NCBI RefSeq assembly: GCF_003367235.1
Contig: NZ_QRGP01000001.1
Span: 2,046,001-2,110,000 of the forward strand
Length of the DNA stretch: 64,000 nt
Direction of reading: 5' to 3'
Source of the DNA: Sphingorhabdus pulchriflava
GTDB taxonomy: Bacteria; Pseudomonadota; Alphaproteobacteria; Sphingomonadales; Sphingomonadaceae
This document shows, in pieces, positions 21,320-25,057 of this stretch. The position numbers and the translations under genes were made by a program. Every line of letters starts with the position of its first letter. The first letter of the stretch is position 1. The notes under the pieces were generated by a model that was not told where the DNA came from, made no database searches, and saw nothing but the letters and a program-made list of their open reading frames with translations.

Positions 21320-21346
21320 TTAGCACTCACTCATGTTGAGTGCTAA
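21320..21346 (-). promoter_or_regulatory. CIRCE operator (HrcA binding) of groESL
   Basis: TTAGCACTC and GAGTGCTAA, separated by exactly 9 bases, are a perfect match to the CIRCE consensus. The HrcA repressor binds this element to keep groESL low until heat or protein misfolding inactivates it. hrcA is not in the window. Confidence 0.97.
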
Positions 21347-21411: not shown

Positions 21412-21437
21412 GTAACTATTACTGCATCGCTGGCGAA
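21412..21437 (+). promoter_or_regulatory. Candidate SigF-type ECF promoter of the bufferin operon
   Basis: GTAACT (21412-21417), a 16-base spacer, then CGAA (21434-21437). The reported SigF consensus in Caulobacter is GTAACC-N16-CGAA upstream of DUF2282/DUF692 genes. The only difference here is the last base of the -35. The motif lies 79 bases before the precursor start codon, and the operon encodes the cognate sigma factor, so autoregulation is likely. Confidence 0.75.
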
Positions 21438-21516
21438 CCCCGTTGTGAAGCAGGCATTGCGTCGTGCTTCCGGACCATCCCCCTGGCCGAACACACATTC
21501 CTATCTGGAGGATATT

Positions 21517-21807
21517 ATGACCGTTTCTGTATTGAAAATCGCAGCCGCTGCTGCGGCTCTTTCCGCCGCTGCCGCAATTGCAGCAACGCCCGCTACTGCT
21601 GCCGCCGGTGCCAAGGAAAAATGCTACGGCGTTGCCCTGAAAGCCAAGAATGATTGCGCCGCGGGCCCGGGCACCAGCTGCGCCGGCACCTCGACTGTCG
21701 ACTATCAGGGCAATGCCTGGAAATATGTTACCAAGGGCAGCTGCGTGAAGATGGGCGGATCGCTCAGTGCAAAGACTGGCAATGCCAAGCCGGTTCCGCA
21801 GAGCTGA
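21517..21807 (+). CDS. bufA1: DUF2282 bufferin-type RiPP precursor
   Basis: A 96-residue exported peptide. Residues 1-29 are a signal peptide rich in alanine ending ATPATA-AA. The mature part has four cysteines at 36, 47, 55 and 76 in the conserved context [34 protein letters not shown] and GSC. This is the DUF2282 family, now called bufferins: peptides whose core cysteines are converted by a DUF692/MNIO enzyme into thiooxazole rings and that sequester copper in the periplasm. The ATG at 21517 has GGAGG 5 bases upstream. The modification enzyme and partner follow directly. The assignment to copper is by analogy with Caulobacter. Confidence 0.9.
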
Positions 21808-21828
21808 GATCTGCGCTAAAGTCTGCGG

Positions 21829-22710
21829 ATGGACATGACGGCCAATCAGACGGCGCAACCCGGATATTCCGGTGCCCTCCCCCCCAAAGCCGGGATCGGG
21901 TTGAAGCCGCAACATTATGATGCCGTCCTCGACGCAGAAACCCAACCGGGTCGCCCCGCCTGGGTCGAGGTCCATCCGCAAAACTATTTCTGCGATGGCG
22001 GCCCTCCGCATCGCTGGCTGGCCGCTGTCGCAGAACAATATCCGATCAGTTTCCATTCGGTCGGCTTGTCGCTGGGTACGGCTGACGGACTGATCGACGA
22101 CCAACTCGACCGTCTGGCTGCACTGTGCGAACGATATCAGCCAGCGATAGTATCCGACCATCTGAGCTTCAGCGGCAACGCGCATGATCGCTATGCCGAT
22201 CTATTGCCTGTCCCCTACACCAAAGAAGCACTCGATCATTTTGTCACACAGGTTGACCGCGTCCAGCAACGGCTCGGCCGTTCGATTCTGATCGAGAACC
22301 CCTCCTGCTATCTGGCCTATGCCGACAATGAAATGTCGGAGACCGATTTCCTCGCCCAACTGATCGGGAGGACGGGTTGCGGACTTCTTCTCGACATCAA
22401 CAATATTGTCGTCACAACGGGTAATCTGGGCGAAAATCCGCGTGCATGGCTTTCGCAGATTGAGGCGGAGTGGGTTGGTGAAATCCATCTTGCAGGCCAT
22501 GCGACCGAAATCCACGAAAGCGGCCCGCTTTATATTGACGATCACGGCAGTGCGGTGGGCGATGTTGCCTGGATGCATTATTTCGATTTCATCGCGACAC
22601 ATGGTGCGAAACCGACGCTAATCGAATGGGATACCAATACCCCCGATTATGCGACCTATATGGCCGAGGCGGACAAGGCGCAGGCGATCCTCGATGCCGT
22701 CGCTCGCTGA
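21829..22710 (+). CDS. bufB: DUF692/MNIO multinuclear iron RiPP-modifying enzyme
   Basis: A 293-residue TIM-barrel oxidase of the MNIO family (DUF692), which uses a multi-iron centre and oxygen to remodel cysteine residues of its precursor. Likely metal ligands are His76 (FHSVGLS), His111 (SDHLSFS), Glu156 (IENPS), Asp189 (LLDINN), His220 (EIHLAGH), Asp238/His239 (DDHG) and Glu266 (IEWDT). All family positions appear intact. It follows the precursor by 21 bases and overlaps the DUF2063 partner by 17 bases. The start at 21829 has a poor ribosome-binding site, and a second ATG two codons on is equally possible. Confidence 0.92.
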   Translation: MDMTANQTAQPGYSGALPPKAGIGLKPQHYDAVLDAETQPGRPAWVEVHPQNYFCDGGPPHRWLAAVAEQYPISFHSVGLSLGTADGLIDDQLDRLAALCERYQPAIVSDHLSFSGNAHDRYADLLPVPYTKEALDHFVTQVDRVQQRLGRSILIENPSCYLAYADNEMSETDFLAQLIGRTGCGLLLDINNIVVTTGNLGENPRAWLSQIEAEWVGEIHLAGHATEIHESGPLYIDDHGSAVGDVAWMHYFDFIATHGAKPTLIEWDTNTPDYATYMAEADKAQAILDAVAR

Positions 22711-23425
22711 CGCCCAGCGCAATTTCATCGCGACGGTCAATGAAGGGCCGGATGCACTGGATGCCAGGCTGTTCGCCGGGACGCCGGAGCGCATCATCCT
22801 GGGCCTGAAGGCTCATGCCAATACGATCAGCCATGCCCGCCTTGCGGCACTCGAAGAGAGCTTCCCGCTGACCCGCGCCGAAATGGGCGAAACGCCTTTT
22901 AATGCACTGTGCCGCGATTTTGTCGAAACAACGCCCGCCAAAACTAGTGACCTTGCTCACATCGGCCGTCACTTTGCGTCGTTCCTTCAAAATTCAAACA
23001 TTCCCGCTGCTATCAGCGATCTTGCCACAATCGAATGGGCCTGGCTGGAAAGCTATCATGCCGCAGATCGGACGCCGCTGACGCTCGAAGCGGTGAGCGC
23101 GATGGCTGAAGCGGATTTACTGGCCCTGCTTGTCGAATTGCACCCAGCCGCGCGCCTTCACGTTTTACACGCGCCGCTGACGGCTTCGCTCGCGCATCTC
23201 GCTAGCGAAACAGATATGCCACGTGCTATTTTGGTTGTTCGCCCGGAGGCCGAAGTACGGCTGCTCGCCATTGACGCACGCACGCTCCAATGTGCCGAAA
23301 AATGTCAACGCACCACCACCATCGGTAACCTTCTCGCACTCGCCAGCGAACTAGGGGATGACACCGACCCCATCGGGCCGGTTCTGACCCTGATCGGCGC
23401 CGGCGCGCTGATCGCGATGGAGTGA
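22694..23425 (+). CDS. bufC: DUF2063 partner protein of the MNIO enzyme
   Basis: A 243-residue protein with an N-terminal DUF2063-type domain (SLADAQRNFIATV, then YANTISHARLAALEESFPLTRAEMG-like sequence, LCRDFVETTPAKTSDLAHIGRHFASFL) followed by a C-terminal half of the kind seen in bufferin clusters. Despite the family name 'putative DNA-binding', such proteins are thought to deliver the precursor to the MNIO enzyme, like a RiPP recognition element. The ATG at 22694 lies inside the end of bufB, which implies translational coupling. A start at 22649 would overlap much more. Confidence 0.87.
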   Translation: MPSLADAQRNFIATVNEGPDALDARLFAGTPERIILGLKAHANTISHARLAALEESFPLTRAEMGETPFNALCRDFVETTPAKTSDLAHIGRHFASFLQNSNIPAAISDLATIEWAWLESYHAADRTPLTLEAVSAMAEADLLALLVELHPAARLHVLHAPLTASLAHLASETDMPRAILVVRPEAEVRLLAIDARTLQCAEKCQRTTTIGNLLALASELGDDTDPIGPVLTLIGAGALIAME

Positions 23426-23428
23426 GAG

Positions 23429-23893
23429 ATGTTGCAGACGCTGACCCAACCCTATGACCGTTTTGTCGCCCTGATTTCCGGCGGATTTGTCGAATCTCTG
23501 ATGCTGCTATTTGTCCGTGTAACACTGGCGGGTATTTTCTGGCGCTCCGGGCGTACAAAGGTTGAGGAAGGCAGCTGGCTGTCCGTCAGCGAGAACACAA
23601 TCTACCAATTTGCCGACGATCCGTTCAACAAGGTGCCGGTGTTGCCAAGCGAGCTCGCCGCTTATCTGACAACCTATGCCGAACATGCTTTGCCGATACT
23701 GCTGGTGCTAGGCCTCTTTACGCGACTTTCCGCGCTGGCCTTGCTGGGCATGACTGTGGTGATCCAGATATTTGTGTTCCCCGAAGCGTGGTGGCAGGTG
23801 CATAGCCTTTGGGTTGCGTTGGCGCTGGTGCTGATCGTGCGCGGCGGCGGCGGCCTGTCGGTAGACCCATTGCTTTCAGGCCGCCGCGCATGA
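23429..23893 (+). CDS. bufD: DoxX-family membrane protein of the bufferin operon
   Basis: A 154-residue membrane protein with about four segments. The segments LLFVRVTLAGIFWRSGRTKVEEGSWLS, HALPILLVLGLFTRLSALALLGMTVVIQIFVFPEAW and the polar loop between them match DoxX. DoxX proteins are frequent fourth members of bufferin operons, but their role is unproven; a redox or quinol-linked function is only a guess. It starts 3 bases after bufC and overlaps the sigma factor (ATGA). Confidence 0.88.
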   Translation: MLQTLTQPYDRFVALISGGFVESLMLLFVRVTLAGIFWRSGRTKVEEGSWLSVSENTIYQFADDPFNKVPVLPSELAAYLTTYAEHALPILLVLGLFTRLSALALLGMTVVIQIFVFPEAWWQVHSLWVALALVLIVRGGGGLSVDPLLSGRRA

Positions 23894-24417
23894 TTGCGAA
23901 CGAGGAAGGGCTGCGCAGGCTGATGCGGATGTCGCAAACTGGCGACAAGCAGGCCTATGCCGTCCTCCTCGAACAATGTGGCAACTGGCTTGCCCGTTAT
24001 TTCCGGCAAAAAATTGCCCCTGACGCGATTGATGATCTGGTGCAGGACACGCTGATTTCTCTCCACCGCAAACGGTCAAGCTATGACCCGTCACGCCCGT
24101 TTTTGCCCTGGCTCGCCGCGATCGCGCGCTATCGCTGGGTGGATCGGCTGCGGCAAAGCTATCGCCAGCAGACCGAGGCGCTGGATCACCATGACGCGGC
24201 CGAGGAAAGTCATGAAGAGGTCGTTGGCGCGCGCATCAGCATAGATCGTCTGCTCGACCTCATCCCGCCACCGCAGGCGGAGGTCATCCGCATCGTCAAG
24301 ATCGATGGTCACAGTATCGCCGATGCCTGCAACCAGACCGGCCAGTCCGAAACATTGGTCAAAGTGAATATCCATCGCGGCCTGAAAAAACTGGCCGCCC
24401 TGATCGAGAATGAATGA
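23890..24417 (+). CDS. sigF: ECF sigma factor, SigF-like
   Basis: A 175-residue ECF sigma factor. Region 2 includes DAIDDLVQDTLISLHRKRSSYDPSRPFLPWLAAIARYRWVDRLR; region 4 includes LLDLIPPPQAEVIRIVKIDGHSIADACNQTGQSETLVKVNIHRGLKKL, a helix-turn-helix for the -35. It is most like Caulobacter SigF, which answers to metal and oxidative stress. The ATG overlaps the DoxX stop codon. The anti-sigma gene follows with an 8-base overlap. It probably drives the operon from the GTAACT-N16-CGAA site. Confidence 0.9.
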   Translation: MIANEEGLRRLMRMSQTGDKQAYAVLLEQCGNWLARYFRQKIAPDAIDDLVQDTLISLHRKRSSYDPSRPFLPWLAAIARYRWVDRLRQSYRQQTEALDHHDAAEESHEEVVGARISIDRLLDLIPPPQAEVIRIVKIDGHSIADACNQTGQSETLVKVNIHRGLKKLAALIENE

Positions 24418-25057
24418 AAAAATGAAACAGCCCTTCGACATTTTGCAGCTGGTCGACGAACTGGAGCCTGTGCGACCGATGAGCATGCGGCGCGCGTTGA
24501 TCTTGCCGGTCGGAATGACCGTTGCAGCGATAGCTATAATTGCGGCTTATGCCGGTCTCCGCGCAGACCTGATGGCAGGCGCACCGCACCCGATGTTCCT
24601 GTTGCGCGCAGGGACGCTGCTATTGCTGGGGCTGGTTTGTGCGGCGACATTGCTGGCAATGGCCAATCCCGGCGTCGGTCGTCATAGCAATGGCTGGAAA
24701 ACCGCGCTGGCTGCAGCTTTGCTCTTTCCACTGGCAGCGACGATTCTCGCCGTTGCGGAACAACCGAGCGGGTCTTCCGGCACGATGCAGTCCGGTATCC
24801 AGTGCCTGACCTTCAGCTTCGTCGGGGGATTTGCGACCGCCACTCCTATGGTGTTGTGGCTGCGCCGGGGGGCGCCGGTCGCGCCGGAAAAGGCAGGGTG
24901 GCTGACAGGGCTAGCCGCAGGTGGGTTGGGTGCCTTTGCCTATAATTTCCACTGCCCGTTCAACAGCATCGTCTACACGGGCTTTTGGTACTCACTGGCG
25001 GTCGGGATTTGCGCGCTGCTTGGTCGGCTGATCGTGCCGCGCCTGATCCGCTGGTAA
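24410..25057 (+). CDS. nrsF: NrsF-type (DUF1109) membrane anti-sigma factor
   Basis: A 215-residue protein with a short cytoplasmic N-terminus (MKQPFDILQLVDELEPVRPM) that would hold the sigma factor, then six predicted membrane segments. Cysteines at 132 (IQCLTF) and 182 (FHCPFNS) correspond to the two conserved NrsF cysteines reported to be needed for chromate/cadmium response in Caulobacter. Its last base directly abuts the convergent hisF stop codon, so there is no spacer for a separate terminator. Confidence 0.9.
   Translation: MNEKMKQPFDILQLVDELEPVRPMSMRRALILPVGMTVAAIAIIAAYAGLRADLMAGAPHPMFLLRAGTLLLLGLVCAATLLAMANPGVGRHSNGWKTALAAALLFPLAATILAVAEQPSGSSGTMQSGIQCLTFSFVGGFATATPMVLWLRRGAPVAPEKAGWLTGLAAGGLGAFAYNFHCPFNSIVYTGFWYSLAVGICALLGRLIVPRLIRW

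Follow-up and report, generated by a model that had tools for sequence, protein, structure and literature searches.

Bufferins are recently described, widespread copper-binding ribosomally synthesized and post-translationally modified peptides (RiPPs), and their control has been studied mainly in Caulobacter, as far as the accessible literature goes. The accessible text of PMC12452194 reports thiooxazoles at the two central cysteines of Caulobacter Buf1 and copper buffering by the peptide, and describes sigma-factor and NrsF genes in Buf1 clusters. In the accessible text of Kohler et al. 2012 (PMC3511200), Caulobacter SigF is assigned the motif GTAACC-N16-CGAA and NrsF two functional cysteines. 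SigF responds to chromate and cadmium, is released from the membrane by dichromate, and has among its targets CC3254-CC3257, neighbours of sigF-nrsF that encode DUF2282, DUF692, DUF2063 and DoxX proteins. According to the accessible part of PMC8224329, copper induces the Caulobacter SigF regulon in each of the two media and in each of the two cell types, and a sigF mutant is copper-sensitive. Here we describe a related operon, bufA-bufB-bufC-doxX-sigF-nrsF, from Sphingorhabdus pulchriflava (Sphingomonadaceae), found in a stretch of 64,000 nucleotides (contig NZ_QRGP01000001.1, positions 2,046,001 to 2,110,000; hereafter the window, whose numbering is used throughout). The new element in it is an embedded SigF-type site, conserved at the DNA level, inside the partner-protein gene bufC.

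The operon is of a known kind, since Buf1 clusters carry sigma-factor and NrsF genes, Caulobacter has the same neighbours under SigF, and copper induces that regulon. Sequence comparison gives good support for reading it as a bufferin operon of the Buf1 type that has a SigF-type promoter and brings its own SigF/NrsF pair. Like Caulobacter vibrioides CC3254-CC3257 and sigF-nrsF (CC3253-CC3252), it has the six families, the two NrsF cysteines and a SigF motif before bufA. In Caulobacter, by the accessible text, sigF-nrsF forms a unit apart, driven by a promoter of its own (divergent, as judged from gene numbering and promoters), whereas here the six genes are co-directional and a second site lies in bufC. 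The Buf1 clusters with sigma and NrsF genes in PMC12452194 are of the same class, and the word "promoter" is absent from the main text of that paper. The gig operons of Cupriavidus and Legionella are related clusters responding to gold and copper, and the accessible text of PMC8224329 and PMC5413113 describes neither a SigF/NrsF pair nor a bufC-embedded promoter in them. No mention of a promoter inside bufC was found in the accessible text of the literature searched, which excluded subscription papers, the founding bufferin paper among them.

The embedded site, P2, had been missed by the initial annotation of this DNA. It is a perfect GTAACC-N16-CGAA on the + strand at 23325-23350, inside bufC (22694-23425, +), matches the Caulobacter consensus exactly and ends 78 nucleotides before the doxX ATG; in most other loci, candidate doxX starts lie about 70-170 nucleotides past P2. 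We analysed 52 loci in detail, 24 in a first set that includes the window and 28 in a held-out set found by a BufC profile search of 397 genomes of the family. This profile, which includes the N and E residues discussed below and may favour BufC proteins carrying them, found the BufC type in 48 of the 397 genomes and 15 of 96 genera. One of the 28 held-out genomes (G082) was already in the first sample, its bufC being previously unseen. Three loci were excluded from the 52: L016, which shares its contig with L112; L013, whose contig breaks off in bufB; and L127, whose BufB is a different one (39% identical) and which gave no bufC match. An exact site was present in bufC in 24/24 loci of the first set, where synonymous codon shuffling expects 1.08-1.09, and in 23/28 held-out loci, where it expects 1.15. 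The shuffling permuted synonymous codons within each gene, retaining protein and codon counts, and takes genes as independent though the genomes are related; identity above 90% across at least 400 nucleotides is reached by just two pairs of bufC genes. By our own tally, loci with a P2-type site come from 13 of the 15 BufC-type genera, plus four named loci. No exact site lay wholly inside the matched bufB, doxX, sigF or nrsF domains in the 52 loci. P2 is thus most likely, on the sequence evidence, an embedded SigF promoter for doxX-sigF-nrsF.

The upstream site, P1, was confirmed where the initial annotation had reported it: GTAACT-N16-CGAA at 21412-21437 (+), 79 nucleotides before the bufA ATG and one base from the published Caulobacter motif. 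A single match of this sort means little. Genome-wide, GTAACY-N15-17-CGAA occurred 32 times versus 78 for the reversed control pattern, so there was no enrichment and this count was rejected as evidence for P1. Across the related loci, an exact GTAACY-N16-CGAA within 330 nucleotides before the first bufA (bufB in L112) was found in 46/52 against 0.01 expected from dinucleotide shuffles, which places P1 far beyond chance; five of the remaining loci differ at the sixth base only, and L123 has no site. Among 20 class-level loci fetched, GTAAC-N15/16-CG[AT]A was present upstream of bufA in 19, the exception being L151. The genome itself holds 12 exact N16 sites, two of them in the operon. Because nine of the ten others lie inside open reading frames of at least 150 codons and the tenth (L232) stands 29 nucleotides before an unrelated-looking reading frame, no convincing SigF-type site was recognised among them and we claim no further SigF targets.

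The initial annotation had also proposed a search for the same gene order and promoter in other sphingomonad genomes, and both were recovered there: besides P1, all six genes were complete in 44/52 loci, with sigF-nrsF behind doxX, a fraction that is not a prevalence since the loci were picked for gene order or BufC type. L112 has no bufA, five loci (L125, L126, L199, L200, L203) have no sigF-nrsF, L221 has no doxX, sigF or nrsF, and in L220 sigF-nrsF was not seen, the contig ending soon after. Among 199 genomes of the family, 87 MNIO matches were found, with NrsF within 6 kb downstream on the same strand in 18, upstream on the same strand in 13, upstream on the opposite strand in 24 and none within 6 kb in 32. 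This count left out NrsF rows judged by eye to be in genomes without an MNIO row, to sit on a different contig or to lie beyond 6 kb.

From the gene content and from the conservation, position and orientation of P1 and P2, we think it probable, at roughly 80%, that two nested SigF promoters place the Buf1 operon under the control of its own SigF/NrsF pair. NrsF would keep SigF at the membrane in unstressed cells, and excess copper or another thiol-reactive metal would hit the NrsF cysteines and free SigF. Polymerase carrying SigF would then produce the precursor, MNIO, partner protein, DoxX, SigF and NrsF from P1, and DoxX, SigF and NrsF alone from P2. BufB and BufC may turn the two central cysteines of BufA into thiooxazoles, and the exported peptide would sequester periplasmic copper. 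P2 would replace the separate sigF promoter of Caulobacter, so that the supply of DoxX and of the sensor pair would not depend on the peptide genes, and the loop would be positive through SigF and closed by negative action through NrsF. The earlier proposal of one transcript shared by sensor and peptide is likely but incomplete, as the conserved site in bufC should yield a further transcript that covers doxX-sigF-nrsF and leaves out the peptide genes.

Alternatively, P2 could be a by-product of protein conservation, with the G-N-L-L...E segment of the C-terminal helix needed by BufC and everything transcribed from P1. In favour of this, N212 and E219 do not vary among the 46 loci that have their site at the homologous position (the site of L113 lies away from it and is counted in the 24/24 but not in the 46), the segment falls in predicted helix 210-220 in the C-terminal part of the AlphaFold model, and codon shuffling by itself can give a single gene a site with a probability of up to about 0.14. 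However, the same shuffling expects only about one site per set, and the constraint follows the nucleotides. The shared pattern in the 46 loci is a codon ending in GT, then AAC, then C or T; five codons further along comes a codon with C as its last base, followed by GAA, the spacing being exactly 16. Residue 211 is Gly in 28, Arg in 8, Cys in 8 and Ser in 2, its codon always ending in GT; Asn212 is AAC and Glu219 is GAA in 46/46, and these two are the only single-codon columns among 38 conserved codon-degenerate columns. All 47 site-bearing genes have C as the last base of the codon that precedes Glu, although the amino acid there varies. Comparison with 19 BufC proteins from other class-level loci, which align only loosely over this stretch, shows N212 in at most 2 of them and E219 in 2, against 18 with R183 and 16 with P151. 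Because the codons are fixed, residue 211 varies and BufC of other gene orders mostly lacks N and E, it is DNA rather than protein that is conserved at P2, and the by-product explanation is very improbable. It is highly probable instead that the own promoter of a sphingomonad extracytoplasmic function (ECF) sigma factor has been written into the RiPP partner gene bufC and is maintained by DNA-level selection across at least 13 genera, dictating the otherwise unconserved N212 and E219. Such a promoter would uncouple DoxX and SigF/NrsF from the peptide and leave both under SigF.

Several observations weigh against the two-promoter reading. Genus g77 has no P2 at the homologous place though doxX-sigF-nrsF follow: the exact site of L113 is in another part of bufC, and L222-L225 lack one altogether, without even a one-mismatch substitute in the stretch from bufC to nrsF. 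Outside the family, a similar site is present in only 1/4 co-directional loci. By the accessible text of Kohler et al. (PMC3511200), sigF is weakly autoregulated under chromium and cadmium. The window NrsF scores far below the cut-off of the NCBIfam AntiSigF_NrsF equivalog (62.2 bits, cut-off 300) and is assigned, by sequence, only at the level of the NrsF family. Lastly, the five loci without sigF-nrsF retain P2 before doxX, the next gene being SppA-like as judged by eye, and P2 may accordingly serve doxX first. These five loci favour a promoter for doxX only, with sigF-nrsF carried along and DoxX needed in excess of the peptide enzymes. L221, which has no doxX behind bufC and no P2 site, agrees with that idea and also fits a promoter for doxX and the genes downstream of it. 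Yet 44/52 loci keep sigF-nrsF behind doxX; three genomes of genus g38 (G120, G037 and G179; loci L052/L102, L060/L098 and L103) with the order bufA-doxX-sigF-nrsF have an exact site at the doxX end, directly before sigF; and of 16 divergent class-level loci outside the family, 8 have a second GTAAC-N15/16-CG[AT]A facing sigF (counted by eye). A doxX-only promoter thus seems unlikely, though it deserves more weight than the other alternatives. Somewhat less likely still is a switch that senses general thiol or oxidative stress, with copper not the main signal and the peptide one of several outputs. The response of Caulobacter SigF to chromate and cadmium would suit it, as would the accessible part of an ECF sigma/anti-sigma paper mentioning ECF16, which deals with hypochlorous acid resistance in Brucella. 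It is opposed by the copper induction and copper sensitivity seen in Caulobacter, by the report in the accessible text of PMC3511200 that agents generating reactive oxygen left SigF-dependent genes uninduced, and by the lack of a convincing SigF-type site elsewhere among the exact N16 sites of the present genome.

Wiring with two promoters, one of them lying inside a biosynthetic gene and driving the sensor, offers a directly testable model for the scaling and shut-off of copper buffering. P2 would also be a clear natural case of a promoter constraining protein sequence, and it cautions that residues kept unchanged in a RiPP partner protein may be there for reasons other than protein function. 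The feature does not extend to all buf loci: this broader candidate was rejected, as only 1/19 bufC genes from other class-level loci has a site. The lone case, L148, is co-directional and outside the family, and its GTAACG-N15-CGAA has spacing 15 as in its own upstream site.

The six genes of the window were confirmed at their annotated places, all on the + strand and each above its Pfam cut-off. The bufA gene (21517-21807) encodes a Buf1 (DUF2282) bufferin precursor of 96 residues (Pfam DUF2282, 83.5 bits, cut-off 22.4), with a hydrophobic, Ala-rich N-terminus, as judged by eye, that may be a Sec signal peptide. Its four predicted cysteines were borne out at positions 36, 47, 55 and 76, counted in the translation. 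Against the NCBIfam BufA2 equivalog, which represents a different bufferin type, it reached 30.9 bits, under the cut-off of 60. The bufB gene (21829-22710) encodes an MNIO (DUF692) enzyme of 293 residues (Pfam MbnB_TglH_ChrH, 308 bits, cut-off 25; NCBIfam MNIO_BufB, 332.9 bits, cut-off 310), and its closest relatives among the named loci are those of a Sphingomonadaceae metagenome-assembled genome (81%) and a Sphingorhabdus metagenome-assembled genome (79%). BufB is related to 3BWW, and the His/Asp/Glu/Asn motifs of both align. These motifs are presumed to supply the candidate iron ligands named in the initial annotation.

BufC (243 residues; Pfam DUF2063, 50.8 bits, cut-off 27.2) gave an AlphaFold model with a mean predicted local distance difference test score of 84.7, whose best two fold matches were 3DEE (top, E 1.1e-5) and TglHI 8HI7; a profile search of the PDB with the BufC alignment returned zero matches, although the fold search did find matches. 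The doxX gene (23429-23893) encodes a DoxX-family membrane protein of 154 residues (Pfam DoxX, 64.9 bits, cut-off 23.6) and sigF (23890-24417) an ECF sigma factor of 175 residues (Sigma70_r2, 43.7 bits, cut-off 24; Sigma70_r4_2, 36.4 bits, cut-off 25.7). The nrsF gene (24410-25057) encodes an NrsF-type anti-sigma factor of 215 residues (Pfam NrsF, 145 bits, cut-off 26.8). Its Cys132 and Cys182, pointed out in the initial annotation, are present and are Cys in 45/45 aligned NrsF proteins (Caulobacter counterparts 131/181). The close packing of the genes also held, with bufB/bufC, doxX/sigF and sigF/nrsF overlapping and gaps of 21 nucleotides between bufA and bufB and 3 nucleotides between bufC and doxX. 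The genome (3.2 Mb) has one MNIO match and a second DUF2282 gene outside the operon.

Six loci (L116, L122, L123, L198, L201, L202) have a third exact SigF-type site shortly past the sigF stop, between sigF and nrsF, which might give the anti-sigma factor a promoter to itself. A single bufB is preceded by two or three bufA genes in tandem in L113, L117, L119, L123, L124, L015, L213, L217, L222, L223 and L225. The bufA-less locus of Allopontixanthobacter sediminis (L112/L016) has a one-mismatch P1, P2 and bufBC-doxX-sigF-nrsF, and a DUF2282 gene at another place in its genome (G073, L140) comes with an exact SigF-type site of its own. The second DUF2282 gene of S. pulchriflava (L003/L128; C2:601316-601459, - strand) is far from any MNIO match, has an N-terminal lipobox-like LSAC and runs into the beginning of a gene downstream that looks by eye like prmC; the 500 nucleotides upstream of the DUF2282 gene contain no SigF-type site. 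Among stand-alone sphingomonad DUF2282 genes (L128-L147), a simple pattern found a lipobox-like motif in 17/22 reading frames from 20 regions, and an exact SigF-type site lay upstream in 7/20 regions. Lipoprotein signals are mentioned for Buf2 in the accessible text of PMC12452194. The stand-alone genes could possibly encode membrane-anchored Buf1 peptides modified in trans.

Downstream of the operon, the coordinates of a HisF-like gene on the opposite strand start one base past nrsF. A GroES/GroEL pair lies upstream, also on the opposite strand. Between groES (- strand) and bufA, about 65 nucleotides before P1, a perfect inverted repeat, TTAGCACTC-N9-GAGTGCTAA, is found at 21320-21346, where shuffles expect 0; we take it to match the heat-shock operator CIRCE (controlling inverted repeat of chaperone expression).

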